Assembly: GCA_022360735.1 (NCBI GenBank) | Contig: JAKSCF010000147.1 | Coordinates: forward strand, 1-13,601 | Origin: Clostridia bacterium | Lineage (GTDB): Bacteria > Bacillota_A > Clostridia > Peptostreptococcales > JAAYPU01 | Direction of reading: 5' to 3' | DNA length: 13,601 bases | In this document: in pieces, positions 164 through 13,601 of the stretch | Layout: every line of letters begins with the position of its first letter | Numbering within the stretch: position 1 is the first letter of the stretch | Translations under genes and position numbers: made by a program | Notes under the pieces: model-generated | What the model saw: only the letters and a program-made list of their open reading frames with translations | Database searches by the model: none | Told to the model about the DNA's origin: nothing

Positions 164-1654
164 ATGGCAAAGTGTATTATGGTACAAGGAACCGGATCCA
201 CCGTTGGAAAGAGCATCATGACAGCGGGAATATGCCGTGTGTTAAAACAAGATGGTTATCGTGTAGCGCCTTTTAAAGCTCAAAACATGGCGCTAAACTC
301 GTATGTCACTAAGGACGGGAAAGAAATGTCACGTTCACAAGTTGTACAATCGGAAGCAGCCATGATAGAGCCTATGATAGAGATGAATCCTATTTTATTA
401 AAGCCCACCAGTGAAATGGGTTCACAGGTCATTCTAAATGGAAAAGTTTATGGCAACATTTCAGCTTATAAATACCATAATGTGAAATCCATCTTTAGAC
501 AAAGCATTAAAGAAGCCTATGATAAACTCAGCCGTCAATTTGATGTTATTGTTATTGAAGGTGCAGGTAGTCCTGCTGAAATAAATCTAAAAAAGGATGA
601 TTTGGCTAATATGGGTATTGCAGAGCTTGTGGATGCCCCTGTAGTATTGGTAGGCGACATTGACAAGGGCGGTGTTTTTGCTTCTATATATGGCACGGTA
701 ATGCTTTTAGAGGACAGTGAAAGAGAAAGAATTAAAGGATATATCATCAATAAATTCAGAGGCAATCTTGATATATTAAAGCCAGGTATTGAAATGTTCA
801 GGCAAAAAATGGATGTGCCATGTTTAGGTGTTGTACCTTTTAAGCAACTCAATATTGATGAAGAGGATAGCGTTACGACAAGATTTGAGGTTGCTAAAAG
901 AGCAGGTATTAATATTGGTGTTATTCGATTACCTTACATGTCAAACTTTACGGATTTTACGGTATTTGATATGGAACAGGAGGTTAGTGTCCAATATATC
1001 ACTTCCCCCGATGACTGTTCTGAACTAGATATTTTAGTTATTCCCGGAAGCAAAAATACCATAAAAGATATGGTCTATCTTCATGAATCAGGAATGGCCA
1101 AAGCAATATACAAAGAGCATAAAGAAGGTATTCCTATTATAGGTATATGCGGCGGATATCAGATATTAGGACAAGAATTAACGGACCCTAAAGGAATAGA
1201 ATCCAGCTTGAATCAAACCAATGGATTGGGACTACTGGATATCAGAACGACTATCCATGAACATAAAATGACAACACAAATTAGTGGTACCCTCCAATGT
1301 CATTTACCATTTGTACCCGATTTGAATGAATTTACTGTGACAGGATATGAAATACATATGGGAGATAGTGAAATCATTAATGGCACAACTCGGCCGGCTG
1401 TTATACTGGAAGATGGTCGGTTAGGCGGTGCTGTAAATAAAGATGGAATGGTTTTTGGCACTTATTTACACGGAATATTTGATAATGATCACTTTAGAAA
1501 TGCACTGCTGAACCATATTAGAAAAACAAAAGGGCTGAAGCAGCTAGAGAAGGTAACCTATAAAGAATATAAAGAAGAACAATATAATCAATTGGCTCAA
1601 TTAGTCAGAAATAATTTAGACTTTAATCATATTAAGAGGATCATAGGGCTATAA
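164..1654 (+). CDS. cbiP: Cobyric acid synthase (adenosylcobyrinate a,c-diamide amidotransferase)
   Basis: Glutamine- and ATP-dependent enzyme that amidates the b, d, e and g side chains of adenosylcobyrinate a,c-diamide to give adenosylcobyric acid; cytoplasmic. The 496-residue product has the usual family length. The N-terminal half is a dethiobiotin-synthetase-like ATPase with a modified P-loop GTGSTVGKS (9-17), the diagnostic KAQNMALNS (38-46) and VGDIDKGGVFAS (163-174). The C-terminal half is a class I glutamine amidotransferase domain: IPGSKNT (293-299), nucleophile Cys329 in GICGGYQ (327-333) and His436 in TYLHGIFD (433-440). The start at 164 follows a GGAG-like site inside the end of cobK. 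The gene is also called cobQ; the neighbours (cbiA, cbiB) fit the anaerobic-type nomenclature. Nothing is missing from the active sites. Confidence 0.97.
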   Translation: MAKCIMVQGTGSTVGKSIMTAGICRVLKQDGYRVAPFKAQNMALNSYVTKDGKEMSRSQVVQSEAAMIEPMIEMNPILLKPTSEMGSQVILNGKVYGNISAYKYHNVKSIFRQSIKEAYDKLSRQFDVIVIEGAGSPAEINLKKDDLANMGIAELVDAPVVLVGDIDKGGVFASIYGTVMLLEDSERERIKGYIINKFRGNLDILKPGIEMFRQKMDVPCLGVVPFKQLNIDEEDSVTTRFEVAKRAGINIGVIRLPYMSNFTDFTVFDMEQEVSVQYITSPDDCSELDILVIPGSKNTIKDMVYLHESGMAKAIYKEHKEGIPIIGICGGYQILGQELTDPKGIESSLNQTNGLGLLDIRTTIHEHKMTTQISGTLQCHLPFVPDLNEFTVTGYEIHMGDSEIINGTTRPAVILEDGRLGGAVNKDGMVFGTYLHGIFDNDHFRNALLNHIRKTKGLKQLEKVTYKEYKEEQYNQLAQLVRNNLDFNHIKRIIGL

Positions 1655-1656
1655 GC

Positions 1657-2616
1657 ATGGATAAGGATATATTGATTCTCCTGGCTTCCGTATGGTTGGA
1701 TATCTGTTTAGGAGATCCTCCTTTCATACCCCACCCTATTGTTTACATCGGAAAAACCATTAGCTTTATAGAGAAGGCAGTTCGAAGAACCGGTATACCT
1801 TTAAGATTGGCAGGATTCCTTCTATGGATAGCTACTATTATGGTTGTTGAAATGGTGATAACAGGCATATTGTTTGTATCATCCTATATTCATTCTTTTG
1901 TGTATACCGGGGTAACCATTTATCTGATTTATACGGCCCTAGCCGCTAAGTGCTTAGCATGTGAAACATTAAAAGTGTATAAGGCTTTAAAAGAAAATGA
2001 TTTATCAAAAGCAAGGCGTCAACTCTCCTATTTAGTAGGAAGAGATACATCTGGTCTTGATGCATCACAAATTACGAGAGCAGCTGTGGAAACCACTGCA
2101 GAGAATACGATAGACGGAGTTTTAGCACCATTATTCTTTCTAACCATAGGATTCTATATTGGGATTCCTGTACAACTGATTTTTTTATATAAAACGGTTA
2201 ATACCTTAGACTCTATGGTAGGGTATCAGCAGGAGCCTTATACAGAGATTGGATTTGCATCTGCTAAAATTGATGATGCGGCTAACTACCTGCCTGCAAG
2301 AATGGGGGCGTTGATGATGCTGGCAGGAGGATACTTGACAGGCTATGATATAAAAAATGGTTGGAAAGTATTAAAAAGAGATTGCAGAAAACATAAAAGT
2401 CCAAATTGTGGGTTCCCCGAATCAGCAGTAGCCGGACTTTTAGGCATTCAAATTGGTGGAACCAATACTTACTTTGGAGAAGTGGTTTACAAGCCCTCTA
2501 TTGGGGATGCCATAAATAATTTAAAACCTGAGCACATTAAAGATGCTATTAAGATTATGTATGTGTCTTTTGGATTGACGACCATGATAATAGGTATGAT
2601 GATGTGGCTATTATAG
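1657..2616 (+). CDS. cbiB: Adenosylcobinamide-phosphate synthase CbiB
   Basis: Integral membrane enzyme that joins adenosylcobyric acid to (R)-1-aminopropan-2-ol O-2-phosphate, forming adenosylcobinamide phosphate. The 319-residue length is normal. Family signatures are all present: an N-terminal hydrophobic segment leading to LGDPPFIPHPIVYIG (18-32), GRDTSGLD (128-135), AVETTAENTIDGVLAPL (143-159), YKTVNTLDSMVGY (178-190) and HKSPNCGFPESAVAG (246-260). Hydrophobic stretches at about 50-95, 155-178 and 300-319 fit several membrane spans. It starts two bases after the cbiP stop, with an AGAGG site (1635-1639) somewhat far upstream. Its co-substrate is made from the product of the cobD gene two genes downstream. 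In Pseudomonas nomenclature this enzyme is called CobD, which should not be confused with the decarboxylase below. Confidence 0.97.
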   Translation: MDKDILILLASVWLDICLGDPPFIPHPIVYIGKTISFIEKAVRRTGIPLRLAGFLLWIATIMVVEMVITGILFVSSYIHSFVYTGVTIYLIYTALAAKCLACETLKVYKALKENDLSKARRQLSYLVGRDTSGLDASQITRAAVETTAENTIDGVLAPLFFLTIGFYIGIPVQLIFLYKTVNTLDSMVGYQQEPYTEIGFASAKIDDAANYLPARMGALMMLAGGYLTGYDIKNGWKVLKRDCRKHKSPNCGFPESAVAGLLGIQIGGTNTYFGEVVYKPSIGDAINNLKPEHIKDAIKIMYVSFGLTTMIIGMMMWLL

Positions 2617-2637
2617 CTTATTTTTTCGATATGATGG

Positions 2638-2643
2638 TATAAT
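2638..2643 (+). promoter_or_regulatory. Possible internal promoter -10 box in the B12 operon
   Basis: A perfect TATAAT lies in the 60-base gap between cbiB and the small membrane protein gene, 33 bases before that gene's ATG. There is no convincing TTGACA-like box 16-18 bases upstream; the best matches there are poor. In AT-rich DNA such a hexamer arises easily by chance, so this is a weak candidate for an internal start that would uncouple the downstream genes. Confidence 0.3.
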
Positions 2644-2676
2644 AAATATAAATCCTACTATAAGGGAGATGGTATT

Positions 2677-2991
2677 ATGGAACCTGGCGTTTGGATAGCC
2701 ATTTATCTTCCCATTTTTGTATTATTTTTTGTGATATTACCATCACAGAAAAGAACGATTCTATTTAAGAAAAAAAGAAAAAGAAGAGGTGTAGCCATGT
2801 CAAACGAATTAATAAAAGACTGTATTGGAAAGGTATGCAACATATCAACAGGTTCATTGGGTTCAAACTTTACTAAAGTAAAGATTATTGAAGTGGTGGA
2901 TAATTGGATAAAGGTTGAGGGAAAAGGTAAAGTTGATCTGATTAATACAGATTTTATTCAAAACATAAAAATACTTTCAAGTCAAAAATAA
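2677..2991 (+). CDS. Small membrane-anchored protein of unknown function
   Basis: I do not recognise this 104-residue protein with confidence. Residues 4-22 (GVWIAIYLPIFVLFFVILP) form one clear membrane segment. It is followed by a very basic stretch, FKKKRKRRG (30-38), which by the positive-inside rule puts the C-terminal part in the cytoplasm. Residues 45-102 look like a small beta domain, with alternating hydrophobic positions in KVCNIST, KVKIIEVVDNWIKVEG and QNIKIL. This resembles SH3/Sm-like or YajC-type small barrels, but only in general character. The start has a GGGAG site (2664-2668) 8 bases upstream. An in-frame ATG at residue 41 (2797) would give a soluble 64-residue form after an AGAAGAGG-like site (2780-2787), so an internal start is possible. 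The gene sits between cbiB and cobD, 60 bases after one and 23 before the other. Confidence 0.75.
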   Translation: MEPGVWIAIYLPIFVLFFVILPSQKRTILFKKKRKRRGVAMSNELIKDCIGKVCNISTGSLGSNFTKVKIIEVVDNWIKVEGKGKVDLINTDFIQNIKILSSQK

Positions 2992-3014
2992 AGCTAAAGG
3001 ATTATAAGTGTGAT

Positions 3015-4058
3015 ATGAATAAACATGGTGGATATTTTGGAAATAAAAAAGAAGTCATTGATTTCAGCATTAATATTAACCCAATTGGAATTTCAAATGA
3101 AGTAAAGAATGTGATAGTAAAATCATTGGATCATATAGGGCGCTATCCGGAAATAGATGGTATGACAGCTAAAAAGAGTATTGCAGAATACGAAGCAGCG
3201 CATGTTGACCATTTGATATTAGGAAACGGTGCTGCAGAGTTAATTTATCTATATGCCAGGGCATTGAAGCCAAAGAAAGTACTCATTATTCAGCCTACAT
3301 TTAATGAATACAAGAGGGCTTTTAAAGTTGTTGGGTCTGAGATTTATGAATGCATTATGGATAAAGCAAATGATTTTTTGATGGATACCCATAAAATTAT
3401 AGATGCTATTAAAGAAATTAAGCCGGATGTCTTAGTGTTCTGTAATCCCAATAATCCAACGGGAAGATACACTAGTAGACAAGACTTTCAGCCTATTGTT
3501 GAAGCATTGGATGAGACTAACGCTTCAATATTTATAGATGAGTCTTTTATTGATTTCTCAGGACTGCCTTCATACAAACCGTACATTGAAAATCAGCCTG
3601 TTTTTATATTACGTTCTATGACCAAATATTTTGCAGTACCTGGGATGCGATTAGGTTACGGAATTGGAAATAAGACTATCATAAGAAAAATGGCTGCTAT
3701 AAAAGAGCCTTGGACGTTAAACTGTTTTGCCTTAAATTCGGTGGATGCATTAATCCATGATAAAGATTATATACTGAGAACAAAGCAATGGTTTGAAACT
3801 GAAAAAAGGTGGATGTATGAGAGTCTAAAGAAGATCAAAAACTTGCATGTTATTGAAAGTCATACTAATTTTTTTCTATGCCAATTATTAAACCATACAA
3901 GTAAAGAAATACAAGAGAAAATACTACAAGAGGATATATATATCAGAACATGTGAAGATTTTACCGGATTGGATGATACTTATATTCGTCTGGCTGTAAA
4001 AGAAAGAGAAGATAATGTAAAGCTTATTCCATGTCTTGAATATGCTTTAATGATATAG
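3015..4058 (+). CDS. cobD: L-threonine-O-3-phosphate decarboxylase CobD (PLP-dependent)
   Basis: Fold-type I PLP enzyme of the aspartate aminotransferase superfamily. It converts L-threonine phosphate to (R)-1-aminopropan-2-ol O-2-phosphate, the arm that CbiB attaches to the corrin. The 347-residue length fits. Visible motifs: N-terminal HGGYFGN and DFSININPIG (16-25) typical of CobD, GNGAAELIYL (70-79), CNPNNPTGRY (143-152), Asp175 in FIDESFIDF (173-181), Schiff-base Lys204 in SMTKYFAVPGMRLGYG (201-216) and carboxylate-binding Arg325 in YIRLAVK. The closest alternative is histidinol-phosphate aminotransferase (HisC), a sister family; the DFSININP motif, the FIDESFIDF sequence and the operon favour CobD. 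The ribosome binding site is poor (AAAGG at 2996-3000), so translation may be coupled to the gene before. Confidence 0.93.
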   Translation: MNKHGGYFGNKKEVIDFSININPIGISNEVKNVIVKSLDHIGRYPEIDGMTAKKSIAEYEAAHVDHLILGNGAAELIYLYARALKPKKVLIIQPTFNEYKRAFKVVGSEIYECIMDKANDFLMDTHKIIDAIKEIKPDVLVFCNPNNPTGRYTSRQDFQPIVEALDETNASIFIDESFIDFSGLPSYKPYIENQPVFILRSMTKYFAVPGMRLGYGIGNKTIIRKMAAIKEPWTLNCFALNSVDALIHDKDYILRTKQWFETEKRWMYESLKKIKNLHVIESHTNFFLCQLLNHTSKEIQEKILQEDIYIRTCEDFTGLDDTYIRLAVKEREDNVKLIPCLEYALMI

Positions 4059-4116
4059 AGGTTTGGGATTGTTGGCTTGCAATCATTGATAAGGGTTTCA
4101 CTCATTAGGAGAAAAA

Positions 4117-4140
4117 ATGTTTATATTATTGAGAGGTTAA
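4117..4140 (+). other. Seven-codon mini-ORF directly upstream of cobU
   Basis: An AGGAG site (4107-4111) sits 5 bases before ATG 4117, which opens a seven-codon frame (MFILLRG) ending in TAA at 4138-4140, two bases before the cobU ATG. The cobU ribosome binding site (GAGAGG, 4131-4136) lies inside the mini-ORF. The layout would allow a ribosome finishing the mini-ORF to re-initiate at cobU. Whether it is translated is unknown; it may be a chance frame in the 84-base cobD-cobU gap. Confidence 0.3.
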
Positions 4141-4142
4141 CA

Positions 4143-4703
4143 ATGAAAAAAACGATACTGATTACAGGCGGCGCAAGAAGTGGGAAAAGTTCTTTTGCTG
4201 AAAAAATGGCCGGAGATATGGGAACAGAAATTCTATATATTGCGACAGCCATTCCCTTTGATGATGAAATGAAGGATAGAATAAAAAAGCACCGGGAACA
4301 AAGACCGAAGCAGTGGAAAACGGTTGAAATGTATTCTGATTTTAATCGATTATTAAGTTTAAATGCATTCCATTCATCTGACTGTTTACTGCTGGATTGT
4401 GTGACAATTATGGTTACAAATCTCATGATGGCATCGGAAGAAGATTTCGACCAATGTGCTCAACAGATAATTGATGATGTAGAAGGTGGTATACATCATG
4501 AAATAAAGAAGCTCATTAACCTTTGCGAAGAGAATCATAAAAAGCTTATACTGGTTACAAATGAACTGGGCATGGGAGTAGTACCTGCTAATCGGTTTAG
4601 CAGAATCTTTAGAGATATAGCCGGAAGGATCAATCAATATGCCGCAAAAAAAGCAGATGAAGTATATCTAACTGTATCGGGTATTCCCATGAAGTTGAAA
4701 TAG
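4143..4703 (+). CDS. cobU: Bifunctional adenosylcobinamide kinase / adenosylcobinamide-phosphate guanylyltransferase CobU
   Basis: CobU phosphorylates adenosylcobinamide and transfers GMP onto adenosylcobinamide phosphate, giving adenosylcobinamide-GDP for CobS. With the start at 4143 the product is 186 residues, normal for the family. Motifs: P-loop GGARSGKSSFAE (9-20), YIATAIPFDDEM (32-43), His50 in KKHREQRPKQWKTVE (48-62), equivalent to the guanylylated His46 of the Salmonella enzyme, LLLDCVT (82-88), and NELGMGVVPANRFSRIFRDIAGRINQ (140-165). The frame is open upstream to a TTG at 4077, but those 22 residues do not resemble the family. ATG 4143 is preceded by GAGAGG and places MKKTILITGG at the N-terminus, so it is the better start. 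The cobS gene follows after 13 bases. Confidence 0.96.
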   Translation: MKKTILITGGARSGKSSFAEKMAGDMGTEILYIATAIPFDDEMKDRIKKHREQRPKQWKTVEMYSDFNRLLSLNAFHSSDCLLLDCVTIMVTNLMMASEEDFDQCAQQIIDDVEGGIHHEIKKLINLCEENHKKLILVTNELGMGVVPANRFSRIFRDIAGRINQYAAKKADEVYLTVSGIPMKLK

Positions 4704-4716
4704 GAGATCAATTATA

Positions 4717-5442
4717 ATGAAGAGTTTGCTAATAGTGCTAACGTTTTTAACCAGACTGCCCATAAAATATCCTTATGAATTCTCAAAGGAATTATATATA
4801 AAAGGGATAAAATACTTTCCTTTAGTGGGTTTGGTAATAGGCGGATTGTTGTATAGCGGAGCATTGTTTGAGCCCTATATAGATAGGCCCGTACTGAGTC
4901 TTTTATTACTGTTGTTTTATCTATGGATCACCGGCGGGCTGCATTTGGATGGGACGGCTGATACTTGTGATGGTATTTTTAGCGGGCGAGAGCGACCACG
5001 GATGTTAGAAATAATGAGCGATAGCAGAATCGGTACATTTGGCGTGATATCTCTCATAATGGTATTAGGAGCTTATCTTGTATTGTTTTCATATGTAAAT
5101 TTGACAGCGATTCTTGTTTTTCCGGTTGTAGGAAAATCAAGTGCTATTGTATCAGCTTTTAATAATCCCTATGCTAAAAAAGAGGGAATGGGTAAAGACT
5201 TTGTTCAAGGCTGCCAATTAGGACAGTTAATAATTGCTATAATATTTCCCCTTGTTATTACCTTGATATTACAAGATCATCACATGTTGATGAGCGTATT
5301 AATCTGTTTTATAATAGTACGGATCATTACTGCACATATTAGGAATCGATTAAATGGTATTACCGGTGACACCGTTGGATTTATAATGGAAATCAGCCAA
5401 GTTATTTTTTTGCTTCTGGTATATCTGATAAGATTTTTTTAA
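4717..5442 (+). CDS. cobS: Cobalamin synthase CobS (adenosylcobinamide-GDP ribazoletransferase)
   Basis: Polytopic membrane enzyme that condenses adenosylcobinamide-GDP with alpha-ribazole (phosphate) to complete the nucleotide loop. The 241-residue length is usual. Signatures: LTFLTRLPI (8-16), the Asp-rich catalytic motif GGLHLDGTADTCDGIFSG (73-90), MSDSRIGTFG (100-109) and GDTVGFIMEISQ (217-228). Hydrophobic segments at about 34-50, 58-74, 108-136, 170-184, 190-206 and 225-241 fit five to seven membrane spans. It has a strong AGGAG site (4702-4706) that overlaps the cobU stop region, so the two genes are tightly linked. A 57-base gap with no recognisable element separates it from cobC. Confidence 0.97.
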   Translation: MKSLLIVLTFLTRLPIKYPYEFSKELYIKGIKYFPLVGLVIGGLLYSGALFEPYIDRPVLSLLLLLFYLWITGGLHLDGTADTCDGIFSGRERPRMLEIMSDSRIGTFGVISLIMVLGAYLVLFSYVNLTAILVFPVVGKSSAIVSAFNNPYAKKEGMGKDFVQGCQLGQLIIAIIFPLVITLILQDHHMLMSVLICFIIVRIITAHIRNRLNGITGDTVGFIMEISQVIFLLLVYLIRFF

Positions 5443-5499
5443 TGAAATTTGCTCAATCAACAAACTCTATTTTAGAAAAAGATGAAAGAGGGATTGAAT

Positions 5500-6102
5500 A
5501 TGAAATGTATCATGGTACGGCATGCTGAGACGAAAGCGAATGCAGATAAGAAAATTTATGGATGGACAGAATCTGAATATAGTATGCTTGGTGAAAAGCA
5601 GGTAGAAAAGCTTGTTGAATATTTAGTGCTTCAAAATATAGACAAAATCTATGCCAGTCCGTTAAGAAGAGCTTTAACAATAGCTGAAAGAGTTGGTAAG
5701 GAAAAAGGAATCCATATTATTAAAGATGATCGTTTAAAAGAAATGAATTTTGGCATTCTTGAAGATATGACTTATAAAGAGGCAAAGGCTAAATATAAAG
5801 ATCACTATGATTCATTTATGAAGGATTTTGAAAACTATGTTATTCCAAATGGGGAAAGCTTTGCACAAGTGCACATAAGAGCTAAAGCGTTTATCGACAG
5901 CATAGAGGAGACCGATGAATGCCTTTTAATGGTTGCGCATGGCGGTGTTGTACGAAGCTTAATGCTACATCTATTAGATTTAAATTTTAAAGATACTTGG
6001 CACTTTGAAGTGCCGCCGGCGACGATTATTGAAATAGATTATGATAAAGGTTTTGGCAAATTAAAGCAATTCATTCCTATTGGGGATCAGGTGAAGCTAT
6101 GA
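5500..6102 (+). CDS. cobC: Histidine phosphatase, probable adenosylcobalamin/alpha-ribazole phosphatase CobC
   Basis: Two-His phosphatase (phosphoglycerate-mutase-like superfamily), here most likely removing the 5' phosphate from alpha-ribazole phosphate or adenosylcobalamin phosphate at the last step. With the start at 5500 it has 200 residues: catalytic His8 in RHAET (7-11), YASPLRRALTIAE (51-63), general-acid Glu81 in LKEMNFGILE, second His147 in VAHGGVVRSL (145-154). An in-frame ATG at 5482 would add six residues (MKEGLN), but its upstream sequence is a poor binding site, whereas ATG 5500 has AGAGGG (5487-5492) correctly placed and gives MKCIMVRH. The superfamily is broad and motifs alone do not fix the substrate; the assignment comes from its place between cobS and cbiA. 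Its stop overlaps the cbiA start (ATGA). Confidence 0.88.
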   Translation: MKCIMVRHAETKANADKKIYGWTESEYSMLGEKQVEKLVEYLVLQNIDKIYASPLRRALTIAERVGKEKGIHIIKDDRLKEMNFGILEDMTYKEAKAKYKDHYDSFMKDFENYVIPNGESFAQVHIRAKAFIDSIEETDECLLMVAHGGVVRSLMLHLLDLNFKDTWHFEVPPATIIEIDYDKGFGKLKQFIPIGDQVKL

Positions 6103-7460
6103 AAGGGATCATGATTGCCGGAACCTCTAGTGGTGTAGGAAAAACCACTATAACATCTGGTATTATGGCAGCTTTGACTAAAAGGAAAATAAGAGTTGCG
6201 CCTTTTAAAACAGGGCCGGATTATATTGATCCAGCATTTCATCAATTCGTCACAGGCAATACATCCTATAATCTGGATTCATGGTTGTTAGATGAAGATG
6301 TTATCAGGTATTTGTACAAGAAAAATGCTGAGCATAAAGATATAGCCATTATTGAAGGTGTTATGGGATTATATGATGGTTTGGGAAAGGAGATTAGAGG
6401 AAGCTCTGCTCATTTATCTCAAATATTAAAAGTGCCGGTCATACTAGTTATTGATGGAAGAGGCATGTCTACAAGTGCAGCTGCCCTGGTTCATGGGTAT
6501 CAAAACTTTAATAAGAATACGAATATTATTGGTGTCCTGATTAATAATATTTCCTCTAAAAAACATTTTGATCTTTTGAAAGATATTATCTATAAATACA
6601 CAGGAATCCCCAGTATCGGCTATCTGCCGACTAACAAACAAGTATCTATAAAGAGCAGGCATCTTGGTCTGGTGCAAGCAGAAGAAATTGAAGACTTAAG
6701 AGAAAAAATATATAAACTATCTAATATGGTCAGCCAATATATTGATTTAGATTATTTTTTAGAAGTCGCAGAAAGTAATGCGTCAATAGAGCTCTCAGAA
6801 AATCCTGCAAAGCCATATAAAGATTTAGCAAGGGGCTTAAAAATAGGCGTTGCTAGAGATAAAGCCTTCTCATTTTATTACCAAGATAATCTTAATTTAT
6901 TAACAGAATTAGGGGCGGAACTCATCTCTTTCAGTCCACTGTATGATCGTCACATCCCCGAAGTAGATGCATTGTATTTTGGTGGTGGTTATCCGGAGGT
7001 ATTTGCTGAGGAACTGGAAAATAATGTTGAGCTTAGGAGTGCTTTAAGACGGAAGCTTGAGGAAGGATTACCTGCCTACGCAGAATGCGGCGGACTCATG
7101 TATCTGACTGAGTCTATTACCGCTTTGAACAACCAGCAATATGAGATGGTAGGGTTCCTGCCGGCAAAATCTCAGATGACTCAAAGGCTGCAGCACTTTG
7201 GCTATGTTGATATAGAAGCATTTGAAAACCAGTATATCAAAGGCCATGAATTTCATCGCTCATTATTAACAGATAATGATAATGTAAAATATTCATATAA
7301 AGTAAAAAAAATAAGGGATAACCAATTGATAGATAAGTGGCAAGATGGATTAATAAAAAAGAATGTTATAGGAGCATATCCTCATATTCATTTTTATAGC
7401 AATATTGATTTTTTAATTCAATTAATAAAAAAATGTCAAAAGGCCAAAGTTGTAACCTAA
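6099..7460 (+). CDS. cbiA: Cobyrinate a,c-diamide synthase CbiA
   Basis: ATP- and glutamine-dependent amidotransferase that amidates the a and c acetate side chains of cobyrinate, upstream of CbiP in the pathway. The 453-residue product has the normal two-domain layout. An N-terminal ATPase carries the P-loop GTSSGVGKTT (8-17), APFKTGPDYIDPAFH (34-48) and IIEGVMGLYDG (84-94). The C-terminal glutamine amidotransferase domain has YFGGGYPE (293-300), nucleophile Cys330 in YAECGGLMYL (327-336), KGHEFH (381-386) and YPHIHFYSN (427-435). KTGPDYIDPAFH separates it from the related CbiP (KAQNMALNS). It overlaps cobC by four bases and is the last gene of the operon. Nothing in the sequence tells whether it is the cobyrinate or the hydrogenobyrinate (CobB) form; the neighbours favour the cobalt-early route. 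Confidence 0.97.
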   Translation: MKGIMIAGTSSGVGKTTITSGIMAALTKRKIRVAPFKTGPDYIDPAFHQFVTGNTSYNLDSWLLDEDVIRYLYKKNAEHKDIAIIEGVMGLYDGLGKEIRGSSAHLSQILKVPVILVIDGRGMSTSAAALVHGYQNFNKNTNIIGVLINNISSKKHFDLLKDIIYKYTGIPSIGYLPTNKQVSIKSRHLGLVQAEEIEDLREKIYKLSNMVSQYIDLDYFLEVAESNASIELSENPAKPYKDLARGLKIGVARDKAFSFYYQDNLNLLTELGAELISFSPLYDRHIPEVDALYFGGGYPEVFAEELENNVELRSALRRKLEEGLPAYAECGGLMYLTESITALNNQQYEMVGFLPAKSQMTQRLQHFGYVDIEAFENQYIKGHEFHRSLLTDNDNVKYSYKVKKIRDNQLIDKWQDGLIKKNVIGAYPHIHFYSNIDFLIQLIKKCQKAKVVT

Positions 7461-7627: not shown

Positions 7628-8527
7628 TTATTTATTAAAGAATACATTAAACTTTTCACATAAACCTAATACTACGTATTCGTGCTCTTCAACAATATGC
7701 TGCTTGATGCTAAAATAGATTTCCGGTAAGGTGTTTAAAACATCCTTGGGAATATAATTGGAATCAATATTTTTTAAGAATAGAAGAAAATCCTCATTTA
7801 ATGATTTAAACGTCTTATAAACCTCGGAAAGATTGTATAAATTGAGAGTGGGGTAAATAAGTGATAACTCATAAGTAACGGTATTAAATTGATTCGCATA
7901 ATCGGTCATTAGCTGAATCATATCTTTAGGTAATTTTGCTATTTCTTTCTGGGTTACATTCATCAGTATAGAGGGGTGCTCAGCTCCAATGATGGACCAA
8001 AAATACATTTGACCATAGATACATTCAAGAGGGGTATTGCCCAAACCTATATTTCTAAAATTAGCTTGTATCAGAACATCCTCTGAAGATGCTTCCATCA
8101 AACTATTATAAGGTTTAAAAATTTCTTGTACATAGAGTTGTTCATACAGAATATGATGCGTCACTTCATATAATACGGAAAATCCGTTATACCCTTCAAA
8201 TTTCAAACGTTCCAAAAGGTGAATAAAAAGTAAATTAGTCTCAATAAAACTTTTGAGTATTAGAAATTGATTGTGATTGATATAAGGCATTAACATTTCA
8301 TTAGAGTACTTATTTTCTTTTTTTTTTTGAATCATTTGATTGTATATGCTTTGGAATGAATTGAATATTTTTTTAAGATTTTTTTGAAAATAGGGTTGAA
8401 GAACTGCACTATTGGGTTCACCACTTTTTAGCAGTACGTCAATATGCTGGTATGAATTTTCACTCCAAAATTCAACTGAGTCCATAATAGATCGGGTTGG
8501 GAAATTAAGTTGACAGCAGTGTGTCAT
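7628..8527 (-). CDS. DUF2935-family protein (two-repeat helical, possible metal-binding bundle)
   Basis: A 299-residue, mostly helical, soluble protein with no signal peptide. Two similar halves are visible. Each begins with FW.......H (FWSENSYQH 20-28; FWSIIGAEH 176-184) and later has H...E...Y (HILYEQLYV 125-133; HIVEEHEYV 277-285). This matches what I recall of DUF2935, a ferritin/hemerythrin-like helical family in Firmicutes with no established function. Candidate metal ligands per repeat are His28/His125/Glu129 and His184/His277/Glu281. An AAGGAG site lies just upstream of the ATG on the minus strand (complement of 8537-8542). It is a single-gene unit, convergent with the B12 operon and divergent from the sigma-54 regulator; no functional link to either is evident. 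Confidence 0.82.
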   Translation of the reverse strand: MTHCCQLNFPTRSIMDSVEFWSENSYQHIDVLLKSGEPNSAVLQPYFQKNLKKIFNSFQSIYNQMIQKKKENKYSNEMLMPYINHNQFLILKSFIETNLLFIHLLERLKFEGYNGFSVLYEVTHHILYEQLYVQEIFKPYNSLMEASSEDVLIQANFRNIGLGNTPLECIYGQMYFWSIIGAEHPSILMNVTQKEIAKLPKDMIQLMTDYANQFNTVTYELSLIYPTLNLYNLSEVYKTFKSLNEDFLLFLKNIDSNYIPKDVLNTLPEIYFSIKQHIVEEHEYVVLGLCEKFNVFFNK

Positions 8528-8723: not shown

Positions 8724-10091
8724 ATGTCATCTAATATGGATTATAAAGAATTTAGAAGAATCATTGATAATTTATATGATGAAGTCATTGTTTATGACAA
8801 CAACTATAAAATAGTTTATGTCAACAAAGCATGTGAACGACATTATGGGATAGCACAAGAAAAAATGATAGGATCCAGTTTCTTCGATTATGCGGATGAA
8901 TATTGGGATTTGTCCGTATTGCCCTATGTATATAAGAAGAAAGAAGGGATTAAACAACGACAATCTACTACAATGGGCGCAGAGATTTATACCATTGCAA
9001 TACCATTATTTGATAAAAATGGAGAGATTCAATATGTCGCTATGAGCGTAAGAGATAATATAAACGAAAGCGGTATACAGGATTTGTTTCAGGTAAAATC
9101 GGATTTGCTCAATAGTAAAATAAGCTTTAACTCGAAATACTTCTATAAAAGTGAAATTATGAATGATGTGATGAATGTAGCCAATATGTTGTTAAAGGTG
9201 GATTCACCGTGCTTAATACAAGGTGAATCAGGCGTTGGAAAAACAATGTTAGGAAAATATATTCATGAACATAGCAGCAGAAGTAAGAATCCTTTTGTAC
9301 ATCTAAATTGTGCAGCTATATCAAAAGAATTAATTGAATCTGAGCTTTTCGGCTATACGAAAGGCAGTTTTACAGGTGCTCTGAGCTCAGGTAAAAAAGG
9401 GTTTATTGAGGCAGCCAATGATGGAACACTATTTCTTGATGAAATATCCGAGCTGCCTTATAAGGTACAAGCAAAGCTTTTACAATTTATTCAAGAAAAA
9501 AAATTCTATCCGGTTGGCAGCAATACGTCTATAGACGTGGATATAAAAATTATTACTGCTACTAACAGAGATCTGAAAAAGATGGTTGAGATGGGCAACT
9601 TTAGAGAAGATCTTTATTACAGATTAAATGTTTTCGAAATTGAGATACCGCCGCTGAGAAAAAGAAAAGATGATATTTTAGTATTGTGCAATTATTATTT
9701 AAATCAATATGATATAAAATATGAAAAAGATCATAGATTTAGTGAGGAAGTAAAAGAGATATTTTTAAATTATTCATGGAAAGGCAATATAAGAGAATTA
9801 TCAAATATTATTGAAAGATTGGTAGTATTGGTCAACGAAGTCATCATAAAGCCTTGGCATTTACCAAAGCATGTGTATGATATACGTGAAAAGAAGGATG
9901 ATATATTAGATACCTTTAAGATGACATCATATGATAAAGCCATAGAAAGTTTTGAAAAAATGCTTTTACAGAAAGCGTACAATGAATGTAAAACGACAAG
10001 GAAAATAGCAGAAAAATTGGAGATAAGTCAATCAAAAGCATCTAGGTTAATGAGAAAGTACGAAATTGGGAAAGGTTTGAGTTATAAATGA
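8724..10091 (+). CDS. Sigma-54-dependent transcriptional activator with PAS sensor domain
   Basis: A 455-residue bacterial enhancer-binding protein. Residues about 8-112 form a PAS domain (IIDNLYDEVIVYDNNYKIVYVN...), the likely sensor of a small molecule or redox state. The central AAA+ sigma-54 interaction domain (about 140-380) has Walker A GESGVGKT (167-174), the sigma-54-contacting L1 loop GSFTGA (214-219; usual form GAFTGA), Walker B TLFLDEI (235-241), arginine-finger region NFREDLYYRLNVFEIEIPPLRKR (292-314) and WKGNIREL (352-359). A C-terminal helix-turn-helix (about 424-446, TRKIAEKLEISQSKASRLMRKY) binds DNA and resembles the TyrR/PrdR-type tail. There is no receiver domain, so it is not phosphorylated as a two-component regulator. 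A GAGGGG site precedes the ATG. It most likely activates the -24/-12 promoter at 10411, reading into the adjacent catabolic genes. Confidence 0.95.
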   Translation: MSSNMDYKEFRRIIDNLYDEVIVYDNNYKIVYVNKACERHYGIAQEKMIGSSFFDYADEYWDLSVLPYVYKKKEGIKQRQSTTMGAEIYTIAIPLFDKNGEIQYVAMSVRDNINESGIQDLFQVKSDLLNSKISFNSKYFYKSEIMNDVMNVANMLLKVDSPCLIQGESGVGKTMLGKYIHEHSSRSKNPFVHLNCAAISKELIESELFGYTKGSFTGALSSGKKGFIEAANDGTLFLDEISELPYKVQAKLLQFIQEKKFYPVGSNTSIDVDIKIITATNRDLKKMVEMGNFREDLYYRLNVFEIEIPPLRKRKDDILVLCNYYLNQYDIKYEKDHRFSEEVKEIFLNYSWKGNIRELSNIIERLVVLVNEVIIKPWHLPKHVYDIREKKDDILDTFKMTSYDKAIESFEKMLLQKAYNECKTTRKIAEKLEISQSKASRLMRKYEIGKGLSYK

Positions 10092-10113
10092 CTCAAGAGT
10101 TAGATGTGACTCA
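10089..10113. repeat. Tandem TGACTCA elements, candidate upstream activator sites
   Basis: TGACTCA occurs at 10089-10095 (overlapping the regulator's stop codon) and at 10107-10113, in the same orientation and 18 bases apart. Two more copies, one in each orientation, form the hairpin at 10185-10202. Four copies in about 115 bases, 210-320 bases upstream of a -24/-12 promoter, fit the position of enhancer sites for a sigma-54 activator. That they are bound by the neighbouring regulator is inference. Confidence 0.45.
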
Positions 10114-10176: not shown

Positions 10177-10211
10177 AAAAGGCATGAGTCAAATGTGACT
10201 CGTGCCTTTTT
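10177..10211 (+). terminator. Intrinsic terminator after the regulator gene, containing an inverted TGAGTCA pair
   Basis: A 15-base stem pairs 10177-10191 with 10196-10210 around an AATG loop; the only non-Watson-Crick pair is one G-U. The 3' arm ends in five T residues (10207-10211). It lies 86 bases after the regulator stop and should end that transcript, separating it from the sigma-54 operon. The top of the stem is TGAGTCA/TGACTC, the same element repeated at 10089 and 10107, so the DNA palindrome could also be a protein-binding site. Confidence 0.8.
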
Positions 10212-10410: not shown

Positions 10411-10425
10411 TGGTATAGAAATTGC
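10411..10425 (+). promoter_or_regulatory. Sigma-54 (-24/-12) promoter of the catabolic operon
   Basis: TGGTATAGAAATTGC matches the consensus TGGCAC-N5-TTGC. The invariant GG (10412-10413) and GC (10424-10425) are present with exactly the required ten-base separation, and TTGC is perfect. The expected start of transcription is near 10437, giving a leader of about 63 bases before the enolase-superfamily gene. The presence of a sigma-54 activator gene immediately upstream strongly supports it. Confidence 0.85.
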
Positions 10426-10446
10426 GAAATACAATAGTGTCGACAA

Positions 10447-10466
10447 GGGGCTGAAAACACAGCTCC
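10447..10466 (+). other. Small hairpin in the leader of the sigma-54 transcript
   Basis: GGGGCTG (10447-10453) can pair with CAGCTCC (10460-10466) over a six-base loop, including one G-U pair. It begins about ten bases after the predicted transcription start and about 20 bases before the AGGAGGTG ribosome binding site (10487-10494). It has no T-tract. It could protect the 5' end of the mRNA; a regulatory role is speculation. Confidence 0.4.
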
Positions 10467-10499
10467 TAAAAAGGCCTTATTCTAATAGGAGGTGGTATT

Positions 10500-11615
10500 T
10501 TGAAAATAACTGATGTAGAAGTGATTTGCTTGCGAGTACCTAAGATGATTGAGAGATGTGTATGGGGAGAAGATGCAGTCATTGTTAAAATTCATACAGA
10601 TAAAGGGATAACAGGTTTTGGAGAAACAGATTCATCTCCTTTAGTAGTAAAAGCAATTATTGAAACACCCAATTCAAACTTAGCTTGCTATGGCTTGAAG
10701 GAACTATTGATTGGAGAAAACCCGCTGGATATTCAGAGACTATGGGATAAGATGTATGGGGCTTCCAATTATATGGGGAGAAGAGGCGCCGGCATTCATG
10801 CTATAAGTGCTGTAGATATAGCACTTTGGGATATAGCAGGCAAGTATTATAACGTACCGGTTTATCAGCTATTAGGTGGTAAATATAGAGATAAAATACA
10901 AGCCTATGGAACCTTTATACCTGCAGATAGACCGGAAGATAACAAAAAAATTGCTAATGATTTGGTTGAAAAAGGTTTTAGGAGTATGAAGTTTGGCGGA
11001 GGAATTTTAGGCGATGATCCTGACGCTGATGTCAAAATAATTAAAGCAGTCAGAGAAGCAGTAGGTGATGATATACAGGTACAGATTGATTTAGCTGCAA
11101 AGTGGAGAACTGCAGGACATACCATTGATGTGGCCCAGAGAGTGGAAGATTGTAATCTGAACTGGATAGAAGAGCCGGTATTATCAGATGATGTCAATAG
11201 CTACGCAAAGCTTTCCAATGCAGTAAAACCTAAAATCGCAGGAGGGGAAACATTAACCACGCGCCATGAGTTTAAGTACTTTCTAGAGCATGGCAAACCG
11301 GATATTGTACAGCCGGATGTAACAAGGTGCGGTGGTATAACTGAAGCAAAGAAAATTTATGACATGGCTGCTATGGATGGGACACAGCTTGTGCCACATG
11401 GATTTAGCACAGGTATTTTAATTGCAGCGACCGTTCATTTTCTGGCGTCTTGCGAATATGGCACTCTAATTGAGTATTCTCAAAGTACAAGCCCACTTTT
11501 TAAATATCTTGTAAGCAACATGATTGAATTTAATGAAGGTTATGTTGAAGTGCCGGATTCACCTGGACTTGGAATTGAGTTAAATGAAGACATCATTAGT
11601 CGATACCGAATTTAA
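10500..11615 (+). CDS. Enolase-superfamily enzyme, mandelate racemase type (dehydratase or epimerase, substrate unknown)
   Basis: A 371-residue enzyme that should abstract the proton next to a carboxylate, leading to dehydration or epimerisation of a hydroxy acid. An N-terminal capping domain (about 1-125) precedes a TIM-type barrel. Catalytic residues seen: Lys164 (SMKFGGG), Mg ligands Asp197 (QIDLAAKW), Glu224 (WIEEP) and Glu250 (GGETL), then Asp273 (QPDVTRCGG) and His300 (VPHGFS) as the His-Asp dyad, and Glu325 (LIEYS). These align closely in spacing with mandelate racemase Lys164, Asp195, Glu221, Glu247, Asp270, His297 and Glu317. The second lysine of the usual KxK (Lys166) is glycine here, which argues against true mandelate racemisation. 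The start is a TTG with a strong AGGAGGTG site seven bases upstream. It is the first gene of the sigma-54 operon. Acid-sugar dehydratase is the commonest role for such sequences, but the BCCT transporter next door suggests a different substrate. Confidence 0.93.
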   Translation: MKITDVEVICLRVPKMIERCVWGEDAVIVKIHTDKGITGFGETDSSPLVVKAIIETPNSNLACYGLKELLIGENPLDIQRLWDKMYGASNYMGRRGAGIHAISAVDIALWDIAGKYYNVPVYQLLGGKYRDKIQAYGTFIPADRPEDNKKIANDLVEKGFRSMKFGGGILGDDPDADVKIIKAVREAVGDDIQVQIDLAAKWRTAGHTIDVAQRVEDCNLNWIEEPVLSDDVNSYAKLSNAVKPKIAGGETLTTRHEFKYFLEHGKPDIVQPDVTRCGGITEAKKIYDMAAMDGTQLVPHGFSTGILIAATVHFLASCEYGTLIEYSQSTSPLFKYLVSNMIEFNEGYVEVPDSPGLGIELNEDIISRYRI

Positions 11616-11664
11616 AACAAATTAATAAAAAAATTCCAAATTGAAATATAGGAGGAAATGATAA

Positions 11665-13236
11665 ATGAGTACTGTTAAGGTTGAGGAAAACAATAAAGTG
11701 AAATACGATAAACTTTTAATTGTGATTAGCTTAGCGTTTGTATTGACTGTGGTAGCTTTTCTAGTTGTTATGCCGGATGCGTCTCAGAATGCTGCAGGTA
11801 AAATCTTCGGTGCATTTACGGATATTTTTGGTTCAGGGGTGCTTTTGTTTGCATTCTTAGGTGTTGTCTTACTAATAATTGTAGCTGCCAGTAAATATGG
11901 TAATATTAGATTTGGTCAAGCAGAGCCGGAATATTCAACCTTTAAATGGGTTGCAATGATGATTTGCTGTGGACTGGGTTCGGCTACAGTGTATTGGGCT
12001 TTTATCGAATGGGCTTATTATATTGGGACACCTGGGGTTGGAATAGAACCGGGAACACCATTTGCTTATGAGATGAGTGTTGGATACACCATGTTTCATT
12101 GGGGTTTTAGTGCATGGGCCTTATATACACTTGCTGCTCTTCCGGTGGCCTACCATTTCTATGTTAGAAAAAATACCGGTCTGAGCTTTAGTTCAGTTGT
12201 AAGCGCTATGACAGGTATAAAAAACGACGGCATTATAGGAAGAATCATTGATGTCATTTTTATCTTCACATGTTTTGGAGGACTAAGTATTACCTTAGGT
12301 GTTTCAGTACCGTTGGTAACACAAGTAGTCTGCAGCGTTATCGGGATTGAGCCGTCATTTACAATGAATATCGCTTTAATTATTTTAATATCTATCATAT
12401 ATTCCTTTAGTTCTTATATAGGGATTCAAAAAGGCATGAGTAAAATATCGGATTGGAATACTAAACTGGCTATTATTTTCTGTGTCTTAGTATTATTGAT
12501 TGGACCCACTTTGTTTATTATGAAGAACTTTGTGAGCTCCTTTGGGTTAATGATACAGAACTTTGTAAGAATGAGTTTATTTACAGACTCTGTGAACAAC
12601 AATGGATTTCCAGAATCTTGGACGATTTTCTATTGGCTATACTGGATAGCATATGCACCATTTACAGCATTATTTATAACAAAGGTATCAAAAGGCCGTA
12701 CCATTCGATCGGTTATTATCAATACGTTGGTGAGTGGCAGCTGCGGTTGCTTTTTCTTCTTCGGGATACTAGGAAGCTTCACAATGGAAAGGAGCCTTTC
12801 AGGCATCGTACCTGTAGTAGATATGTTGGGGCAAGGTTTGGATAATGAAGCTATCGTTATGTCCTTACAGTCATTACCAATCGGAAGTATTCTATTAATT
12901 ATATTTTCTATTGTTACAATACTATTTTTAGCAACTACTTTAGATGGAGCAGCTTTTACAATGGCATCTACTGCTACGCCGGGGCTTAAAAATAATGAGG
13001 AACCGCATCCATTACATCGATTGTTCTGGTGTGTTATGCTCGCATTAGTACCATTATCTATGATATTAATAGGCGCAAACCTTAATACCATTAAGACGTG
13101 TGCAGTAGCTACAGCAGTGCCGTTAACTTTTATCATGATCGTCATGCTTTATGGATGGATAAAATGGATGATATCGGATTATTCTGAGAAGCATTCCGTA
13201 GATATTTTTAAAGAGTTTGCATTAAAAGATCAATAG
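11665..13236 (+). CDS. BCCT-family transporter, CaiT-like (betaine/carnitine-type substrate)
   Basis: A 523-residue, roughly 12-span carrier of the betaine/choline/carnitine family. Motifs: IEWAYYIGTPGVGIEP (114-129), FHWGFSAWALYTLAALPVAY (144-163), NGFPESWTIFYWLYWIAYAPF (313-333) and SKGRTIR (342-348). The sequence is closer to CaiT than to BetP. From recalled alignment with CaiT, the aromatic substrate box is largely kept: Tyr118 (Tyr114), Trp146 (Trp142), Tyr326 (Trp323) and Trp327 (Trp324). Two residues that make CaiT independent of sodium are not kept: Arg262 is Asn265 and Met331 is Thr334. This points to sodium-coupled uptake rather than precursor/product exchange. The tail is short, without BetP's long osmosensing extension, so a nutritional role is likelier than osmotic stress. 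An AGGAGG site (11650-11655) lies nine bases before the ATG. It is 49 bases from the enolase-superfamily gene and in the same operon. Confidence 0.95.
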   Translation: MSTVKVEENNKVKYDKLLIVISLAFVLTVVAFLVVMPDASQNAAGKIFGAFTDIFGSGVLLFAFLGVVLLIIVAASKYGNIRFGQAEPEYSTFKWVAMMICCGLGSATVYWAFIEWAYYIGTPGVGIEPGTPFAYEMSVGYTMFHWGFSAWALYTLAALPVAYHFYVRKNTGLSFSSVVSAMTGIKNDGIIGRIIDVIFIFTCFGGLSITLGVSVPLVTQVVCSVIGIEPSFTMNIALIILISIIYSFSSYIGIQKGMSKISDWNTKLAIIFCVLVLLIGPTLFIMKNFVSSFGLMIQNFVRMSLFTDSVNNNGFPESWTIFYWLYWIAYAPFTALFITKVSKGRTIRSVIINTLVSGSCGCFFFFGILGSFTMERSLSGIVPVVDMLGQGLDNEAIVMSLQSLPIGSILLIIFSIVTILFLATTLDGAAFTMASTATPGLKNNEEPHPLHRLFWCVMLALVPLSMILIGANLNTIKTCAVATAVPLTFIMIVMLYGWIKWMISDYSEKHSVDIFKEFALKDQ

Positions 13237-13250
13237 CTCAAACAAAAATG

Positions 13251-13277
13251 TAAGGGTGGCTCACCTAGTCACCCTTA
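13251..13277 (+). other. Intercistronic hairpin next to the uxaA-like ribosome binding site
   Basis: An 11-base stem pairs 13251-13261 with 13267-13277 around a CACCT loop, with one G-U pair. It is GC-rich compared with its surroundings and is followed not by a T-tract but directly by the AGGAGG site (13279-13284) of the next gene. It is therefore unlikely to be an intrinsic terminator and may be an mRNA processing or stability element that sets different expression of transporter and enzyme. Confidence 0.6.
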
Positions 13278-13289
13278 GAGGAGGAAAAC

Positions 13290-13601
13290 ATGAAAAGATT
13301 TATCATAATGAATGCTGATGACAATGTAGCAACTGCGCTTGAAGATTGTCAAAAGGGTGAAACAGCTATCGTTTATGATCAGTATAAACAAGAAGTAGTG
13401 GTTTTGGATTGTCTTGACCATATAACCTATGGGAATAAGATGGCATTAAAAGATATTTATAGAAACGATACCATTCTAAAATATTCATTAAGCATTGGAA
13501 CGGCTGTATCCAATATTAATAAAGGAAAACTTGTACATGTTCATAATGTTAAGAGCAATAGAATTGATATTCCTGAAGATATAAAAAGGCAAATCATAGA
13601 A
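13290..13601 (+). CDS. UxaA-family SAF-domain protein (altronate dehydratase N-terminal-like), 3' end outside window
   Basis: The first 104 residues of a gene that runs off the window. They match the SAF domain at the N-terminus of altronate/galactarate dehydratases and of the small subunit of sulfolactate sulfo-lyase (SuyA): MNADDNVATALEDCQKGE (7-24), YGNKMALKDI (46-55), KYSLSIGTAV (63-72) and KGKLVHVHNVKSNR (77-90). In the family the central motif normally reads GHK; here it is GNK (47-49), while HVHN is kept. Either this is a stand-alone small subunit, with the catalytic large subunit encoded next, or the N-terminus of a full-length enzyme; the cut prevents a decision. It follows the transporter by 53 bases with a strong AGGAGG site and belongs to the sigma-54 operon. 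It probably acts with the enolase-superfamily enzyme in breaking down a hydroxy acid. Confidence 0.88.
   Translation, partial: MKRFIIMNADDNVATALEDCQKGETAIVYDQYKQEVVVLDCLDHITYGNKMALKDIYRNDTILKYSLSIGTAVSNINKGKLVHVHNVKSNRIDIPEDIKRQIIE

Follow-up and report, generated by a model that had tools for sequence, protein, structure and literature searches.

A sigma-54-linked gene set of BCCT carrier, enolase-superfamily enzyme and split UxaA-type lyase: a candidate catabolic route for hydroxylated betaine-type acids

The gene set that is the subject of this article has described relatives in several quarters. Its BCCT-family carrier invites comparison with DddT, which carries dimethylsulfoniopropionate (DMSP), with YeaV and AcnT, which import carnitine, and with the L-carnitine/gamma-butyrobetaine antiporter CaiT, in which Arg262 and Met331 stand in for sodium. 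Its mandelate-racemase-type enzyme of the enolase superfamily (MR_A in what follows) is related to E. coli DgoD and to a protein of solved structure, PDB 3SJN, whose entry is named just 'Mandelate racemase/muconate lactonizing protein', a name without a function. Its UxaA-type lyase can be set beside the split lyases of that type (SuyAB-like enzymes, altronate and galactarate dehydratases). The known chemistry of both enzyme families is that of 2-hydroxy acids bearing a leaving group at the beta position. The genes lie on a stretch of 13,601 nucleotides from a Clostridia bacterium (GenBank assembly GCA_022360735.1, contig JAKSCF010000147.1), called the window below, which is the entire contig. 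An earlier note on this DNA had seen in them a possible undescribed catabolic operon, with a CaiT-like carrier and a hydroxylated betaine, or something similar, as the compound to be epimerised or dehydrated and then cleaved. The layout is as follows.

8724-10091, plus strand: sigma-54-dependent activator with PAS, Sigma54_activat and HTH_50 domains (Pfam PF00989, PF00158 and PF18024)
10186-10201, no strand assigned: palindrome GAGTCAAATGTGACTC, candidate upstream activator site, with a half-site repeated at 10104-10112
10411-10426, plus strand: -24/-12 (sigma-54) promoter TGGTATAGAAATTGCG, 8/11 consensus letters
10500-11615, plus strand: MR_A, mandelate-racemase-type enolase-superfamily enzyme, TTG start (Pfam MR_MLE_N and MR_MLE_C)
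11665-13236, plus strand: BCCT importer of YeaV/DddT type (Pfam PF02028)
13290-13601, plus strand: SAF-type small subunit of a split UxaA-type lyase, its open reading frame (ORF) cut by the contig end

Strong Shine-Dalgarno sequences precede the MR_A, BCCT and SAF genes (AGGAGGTG, AGGAGG and GAGGAGG, respectively). The genes are genuine, as the earlier note had observed. Its UxaA-type gene is borne out in part: a SAF-type ORF is present, but only the small subunit, of about 110 amino acids, is in view.

The reading that we favour, tentatively and at rather less than even confidence, is that a hydroxylated betaine-type acid is the substrate of two eliminating lyases of complementary stereochemistry, encoded in a sigma-54-induced operon that also provides for BCCT import. 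The nature of the substrate is suggested by the 2-hydroxy-acid chemistry of both enzyme families taken together with transport by a BCCT carrier. An importer and two lyases of opposite stereochemistry would account for the closed set of genes, for the exchange of one lyase for another enolase-superfamily enzyme (MR_B) in some operons, for the second lyase being optional and for the altered active sites, all of which are described below.

The operon and its conservation across loci

The activator has a Sigma54_activat domain and a -24/-12 site lies upstream of the operon, 75 bases before the MR_A start codon, as in sigma-54-controlled operons. That site is weak when taken alone, with 109 of 2000 shuffles scoring as high as its 8/11. 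Relatives of the activator (46-64% identity) adjoin the same operon in eight other loci, however, and all nine of the other sigma-54-linked regions, drawn from eight loci, have sites with 9-10/11 consensus letters before the operon. In the control regions (five, from the seven loci without an activator, L005 and L098 being left out) the best site reaches 6/11 or less in 5/5. The activator and promoter of the earlier note are upheld by these domains and sites. The palindrome at 10186-10201 may be a site to which the activator binds: a similar one, GAGTCATTTATGACTC, lies in the homologous gap of L002 (a Clostridiaceae M8S5 locus). It is absent from the other eight regions scanned, among which L099, L102 and L103 have single or separate half-sites.

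Relatives of MR_A are widespread. The gene set is shared by bacteria of several phyla, among them many gut and sea inhabitants. The best 120 from a protein search (64-100% identity) include proteins of Clostridia, Fusobacteria, Vibrio/Photobacterium/Shewanella, Pseudovibrio, Desulfovibrio-type bacteria, Bacillaceae and Synergistes. Gene neighbourhoods were compared in 16 loci whose MR_A shows 58-100% identity and which belong, where named, to Bacillota, Pseudomonadota and Thermodesulfobacteriota. These are the window, five of 80 loci returned by a separate search for MR_A loci (L001-L005), two plasmids (L086 and L087, out of 1644 matching records) and eight loci from whole-genome searches, counted as new hits at E<=1e-120 with the centre genomes not recounted (3/247, 1/291, 3/198, 0/24 and 1/199 genomes). 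The other 75 of the 80 loci, at <=43% identity, were left out of this count; 74 of them serve as the outgroup for the MR_A alignment. Of the 16 loci, 13 have the BCCT carrier and 10 the SAF subunit; nine have the sigma-54 activator, and nine have the large UxaA-type subunit (taking the window as lacking it, because the contig ends before that gene's place). The co-occurrence that the earlier note supposed for its catabolic operon is thus conserved in three phyla.

Gene order varies between loci. In L099 and L103 it runs activator, MR_A, BCCT, SAF, large subunit; this is identical to the order in the window and predicts a large UxaA subunit after the window's SAF gene. In the genome of L004 that subunit lies on a different contig. 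EamA carriers take the place of the BCCT in L097 and L098, and in L086 and L087, which are operons on plasmids of Psychrobacter and Pseudomonas, MR_B takes that of the UxaA pair. An orphan MR_A with no BCCT or UxaA neighbours occurs in Desulforhopalus singaporensis (L005, 10001-11119), where it adjoins genes that resemble, by eye, those for XdhC, hydantoinase and molybdenum enzymes.

Other conserved partners were sought by clustering the 219 ORFs of at least 90 amino acids that lie within 8 kb of MR_A in 15 loci (L004 being left out as too short; MR_A and the large subunit of L003, lost to overlapping ORFs, were counted from the synteny data). Only MR_A, BCCT, SAF, the UxaA large subunit and the sigma-54 activator occur in at least four of the 15 loci, and no further family is found in more than three. 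Two reach three: one with GntR-type regulators and one of SDR-type oxidoreductases. Since no other family recurs in more than three of these loci, the set looks like a closed module, apparently made up of regulator, importer and two lyases.

The carrier and the two probable lyases

PF02028 spans residues 19-502 of the window's BCCT protein (423 bits), which is thereby placed in the family. DddT is its best solved match. The window's protein shares 42% identity with YeaV and about 26% with CaiT. In a tree of 69 BCCTs, made by a quick method, the MR_A- and MR_B-linked carriers fall together with YeaV/AcnT and the L002-genome carrier L202 in one 22-row set, with CaiT apart from it. By tree and alignment the window's carrier has a predicted DddT-like pocket and groups as sister of the YeaV/AcnT carnitine importers. 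The membership of a betaine carrier family asserted in the earlier note holds, in view of DddT and YeaV/AcnT; its term 'CaiT-like' has to be given up.

According to PMC13270143, the pocket of DddT is formed by Trp140, Trp320, Trp321 and Tyr324, and a W320A mutant loses transport. The equivalents of Trp140, Trp321 and Tyr324 are kept in the window's BCCT and that of Trp320 is Tyr, so that three of the four residues, and not the full aromatic pocket, are preserved. The same position (CaiT Trp323) is Tyr in all 13 MR_A-linked and both MR_B-linked carriers. In the 70 BCCT rows tabulated it is Trp in 50 and Tyr in 20, with the qualifications that two of the Tyr rows (L161 and L180) repeat L003 and L002, that three BCCT matches without a locus were left untabulated (one was later read as L214), and that MR neighbours for the whole-genome rows were sought in short locus flanks. 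The aromatic box is mostly common to YeaV/AcnT, DddT and the module's carriers, which differ by this Tyr and by their gene partners. That Tyr in transmembrane helix 8 arose repeatedly together with MR linkage was examined on the tree and not borne out: three letter changes and two linkage changes suffice, and the two independent pairs are too few for a test.

The Na2 ligands of DddT are Thr418 and Thr419 and a Na1 ligand is Ser422, again from PMC13270143. Because the Thr-Thr pair of the Na2 site is kept in the window's BCCT, sodium-coupled import seems likelier than exchange of the CaiT type. The equivalents of CaiT Trp142 and Tyr327 are retained, but Arg262 and Met331 are replaced by Asn and Thr (the position of Met331 is Met in L003 and L096), and the score against the curated CaiT model is 338 bits, under its cut-off of 541. 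A CaiT-type exchanger is rejected on the grounds of identity, tree position and residues.

PDB 3sjn, which we take to be a Shewanella pealeana structural-genomics target, matches MR_A over its full length (E 7e-176), and a large UxaA subunit of the module's family from Shewanella pealeana is among the listed sequences (P0167). In an alignment of 29 MR_A members with 75 outgroup relatives (74 loci and DgoD; residue numbers follow P0001, which is window numbering plus 1), K165, D198, E225, E251, D274, H301 and E326 are kept in 29/29, giving the three carboxylate metal ligands, the His-Asp dyad and the strand-8 Glu of the mandelate racemase subgroup. Two-base racemases and epimerases of the enolase superfamily use the second lysine of a KxK motif. 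In MR_A that residue is Gly167 in 29/29 members (in the outgroup, K or R in 46/75 and Gly in 9/75), and strand-3 position 200 is Ala, Val or Gly in 29/29, as against His or Asn in 53/75 of the outgroup. DgoD, 35% identical, shares the metal ligands, the dyad and the first Lys with MR_A but has KxN and a strand-3 His where MR_A has KxG and Ala. Loss of the second Lys suggests that a proton is abstracted from one face only, so that MR_A is probably a single-base, one-face lyase; the epimerisation of the earlier note does not sit with this.

Residues specific to the MR_A family include Trp23, Asp45, Phe140 and Phe303, found in 1%, 8%, 0% and 5% of the outgroup, respectively. Asp26 is invariant in MR_A, yet is present in 24% of the outgroup. 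In the enolase superfamily the loops that carry Trp23, Asp26 and Asp45 cap the active site, and such an aromatic and acidic cap would suit an onium group.

MR_B is a relative of PDB 4jhm. In 4/4 sequences it has KxH on strand 2, no strand-7 His, and Asn in place of the strand-5 Glu, a mirror pattern of the base positions of MR_A, from which we infer that MR_A and its partner would take opposite C2 configurations.

The best solved match of the window's SAF ORF is the altronate hydrolase SAF domain 3k3s (E 1e-9); cut as it is, the ORF has no Pfam match at 0.001. Its relatives have 109-131 amino acids, and it is 38-46% identical to the SAF subunits of nine loci in which a large subunit of about 390 amino acids is adjacent. 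That separate subunit adjoins SAF in nine of 15 relatives. The complete relative L002 has SAF, GD_AH_second and GD_AH_C domains by Pfam, the domain make-up of the UxaA/GarD superfamily, and the listed split UxaA-type lyases are 31-39% identical to its protein.

Highly conserved residues of that superfamily are replaced in the module's large subunits. In a 170-row alignment (128 family and 42 outgroup sequences, L002 numbering), E83G, D283C and F300W are found in 128/128 and K316R in 127/128, a count to be read with the fact that 119 of the 128 are best hits of one search and so are not independent. The outgroup keeps Glu83 in 40/42, Asp283 in 36/42, Phe300 in 41/42 and Lys316 in 42/42; the module's subunits thus depart from the conserved-residue pattern of UxaA/GarD. 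Trp217 and Trp300 are invariant (128/128) and would suit a cationic group. An Arg-to-Glu charge reversal at position 225, seen in a 27-row alignment, was lost in the 170-row one and was abandoned. Cys51, Cys82 and Cys139 of the large subunit (11674-12855 in L002, for example) are at positions that are also Cys in most aligned split UxaA proteins; with Cys283, which replaces the conserved Asp, they could make an iron or iron-sulfur site.

A proposed route and its rivals

As we picture it, the PAS/AAA+ activator would sense the compound and bring about transcription from the -24/-12 promoter, and the BCCT carrier would bring in a hydroxy acid that is a zwitterion of the onium type, sodium probably being co-transported in the manner of DddT. 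Two unrelated lyases, both presumed to be metal-dependent, would each deal with one C2 configuration: MR_A would work on one face by way of its His301-Asp274 dyad and the SAF/UxaA-type heteromer would take the other configuration, with MR_B, its base on the opposite face, substituting for the UxaA pair in L086 and L087. Both would remove the proton alpha to the carboxylate and expel the substituent at the beta carbon, leaving a 2-oxo acid. If that product passed straight into central metabolism, the absence of other conserved enzyme families would be accounted for. Hypothetical candidates that would fit are a 2,3-dihydroxy-4-trimethylammoniobutyrate and a 2-hydroxy-3-onium-propionate. That MR_A and its partner are onium lyases, converting the enantiomers of a 2-hydroxy-3-onium-propionate (trimethylammonio- or dimethylsulfonio-lactate) to pyruvate and trimethylamine or dimethyl sulfide, is a long shot; we know of no earlier enolase-superfamily or UxaA-type enzymes for such chemistry.

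Several points weigh against the two-lyase, betaine-type reading. On the side of the carrier, the Trp/Tyr letter amounts to just three changes on the BCCT tree and is not independent evidence; Tyr is also found in L198, L201 and L202, BCCTs with no MR enzyme seen beside them, and the MR_C-linked BCCT of L214 retains Trp; and the window has Gly for the DddT Na1 ligand Ser422. PMC13270143 states that BCCT substrates are hard to infer from sequence similarity and that two DddT-like homologues that were assayed carried no DMSP. As for the gene set, the BCCT is missing in three of the 16 loci (L005, L097 and L098), and the UxaA pair was not found at E<=1e-20 in the genomes of L001 and L101 (G001 and G722), in which MR_A and BCCT are present. 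Its apparent replacement by MR_B in L086 and L087 is a statement on the operon only. The SDR-type family, found at scattered positions in its three of 15 loci, has a single identified member, that of L096. As for the enzymes, a single-base MR_A might be an isomerase of a different kind, and the cation-binding role of its family-specific residues is read from sequence.

Among alternatives, ordinary sugar-acid catabolism survives best and is still unlikely: MR_A and the UxaA pair would be aldonate or aldarate dehydratases and the BCCT a bystander or a carrier switched to sugar acids. Mandelate-racemase-type and UxaA-type enzymes normally work on 2,3-dihydroxy acids, and the appearance of EamA in place of BCCT in L097 and L098 would not be out of keeping with such a role. 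The best NCBIfam models for both enzymes are indeed those of sugar-acid dehydratases, but the scores lie below the curated cut-offs (240.3 bits against 311 for MR_A with the galactonate dehydratase model NF010624; 156 against 731 for the L002 UxaA-type protein with the galactarate dehydratase model). A BCCT in 13 of 16 loci and three phyla is hard to regard as a bystander, the four superfamily residues are replaced in 127-128 of the 128 large subunits, and no kinase- or aldolase-like family recurs in the 15 loci by ORF clustering, the flanking genes being partly annotated.

The set might instead serve sulfolactate, with the SAF/UxaA pair as an SuyAB-like (R)-sulfolactate sulfo-lyase and MR_A racemising or cleaving (S)-sulfolactate to give pyruvate and sulfite. 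The pair resembles SuyAB in its two-subunit build, and a sulfolactate pathway likewise needs just a stereo-partner and one lyase. Members of the set occur in Desulforhopalus singaporensis, Halodesulfovibrio and a Mailhella metagenome-assembled genome, presumably organisms of sulfonate or sulfite habits, and the source of two listed large subunits (P0150 and P0161) gives them the name (2R)-sulfolactate sulfo-lyase subunit beta. We nevertheless think this quite improbable. The aromatic cation box of a BCCT is ill-suited to a dianionic sulfonate, and MR_A is without the second base of a racemase. The large subunit is 35% identical to a protein of L108 that is SuyB-like by its SlcC/ComC-like neighbours only, which brings L108 no closer than other listed split UxaA proteins (up to 36.6% and 39%); moreover, L108 is without the Cys51 and the GC at 81-82 that the module's large subunits keep. 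SlcC/ComC is described in PMC12421959 as a two-dehydrogenase racemase for sulfolactate, and no family of that type recurs in the 15 loci, with SDR-type oxidoreductases in three. SuyAB membership is disfavoured by the low identity, the Cys differences and the absence of recurrent SlcC/ComC-type genes.

Carnitine itself has been thought of, since the carrier is sister to YeaV/AcnT, whose genes adjoin those of carnitine monooxygenase; MR_A and the partner lyase would then form crotonobetaine from D- and L-carnitine by dehydration. The substrates known for both enzyme families carry a C2 substituent, however, and carnitine does not; none of the recurrent families is of cai type; and the carnitine importers have Trp where the module's clade has Tyr, all of which make this a poor prospect. 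Very improbable is an epimerase and lyase for hydroxyproline betaine or another cyclic betaine of that sort. The pairing of BCCT and enolase-superfamily enzyme does recall the hydroxyproline-betaine pathway, and L129 has a more distant BCCT (39% identical) in the vicinity of proline genes and a gene for aconitase X. The second base is missing from MR_A, however, and the cluster shows no recurrent accessory family.

The reading with two lyases of opposite stereochemistry on a hydroxylated betaine-type acid is the one retained, and the interpretation of the earlier note is partly supported. As far as tested, no full similarity network having been built, the results that it had named as telling against it did not appear: the sugar-acid scores fall under their cut-offs and the gene set holds together in three phyla. 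It had known of no described pathway with exactly this set of genes, and no description of a BCCT with the enolase/UxaA gene set was found among the papers listed from open-access PubMed Central full text, which is not proof of absence.

Related clusters and significance

Elsewhere in the window, a cobalamin cluster at 164-7460 encodes CobQ, CbiB, a CobD-like protein, CobU, CobS, an alpha-ribazole-phosphatase-like protein and CobB/CbiA; inserted in it is an ORF of 104 amino acids (2677-2991) that no NCBIfam model matched. At 7628-8527, minus strand, is a 299-residue protein with a marginal Pfam match to DUF2935.

Pairing of a BCCT with an enolase-superfamily enzyme looks like a wider theme, of which no description was found among the same listed papers. 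The genome of L002 has two more BCCT neighbourhoods. In L210 (3320-12594) a paralogous sigma-54 activator stands beside a Tyr-type BCCT and two coenzyme A (CoA)-transferase-like proteins, one confirmed as class III by Pfam; an acryloyl-CoA-reductase-like enzyme (511 bits against a cut-off of 640) and two ORFs that are probably EtfAB, judged by their place and read from their sequences, complete a cluster that is possibly an anaerobic route for DMSP or beta-alanine-betaine. In the other, L214 (4520-8740), a BCCT is found with a 3mqt/3mkc-type enolase and a PF12831 flavin adenine dinucleotide (FAD) enzyme. A trio of BCCT, MR_B (4jhm type) and PF12831 FAD oxidoreductase recurs in L130 (2225-6401), with an annotated GntR-type regulator, and in L211 (5463-9703).

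Two plasmids have split UxaA pairs in other company. On that of Sporomusa termitida (L109, 1-7161) the pair is accompanied by a protein with a lactate-racemase domain, by an enolase-superfamily enzyme and by a tripartite carrier, apparently a further racemase-plus-lyase set. That of Variovorax SRS16 (L108, 4512-9273) has a hydroxyacid dehydrogenase, the split UxaA pair, a tripartite-carrier binding protein and an Ldh-family oxidoreductase, and looks like a sulfolactate cluster (SlcC/SuyAB/ComC-like) that is annotated merely as UxaA family.

The module is a compact catabolic unit, spread over three phyla and made up of one carrier and two enzymes, and is directly testable. Solved relatives without a named function exist for MR_A (3SJN) and for MR_B (4JHM). 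Naming the substrate would identify a nutrient of gut, marine and sediment bacteria and, in one stroke, assign functions to three enzyme subfamilies. The route may be one of betaine degradation that releases trimethylamine or dimethyl sulfide; if the enzymes do prove to be onium lyases, they would constitute a new microbial source of these compounds in guts and marine sediments.

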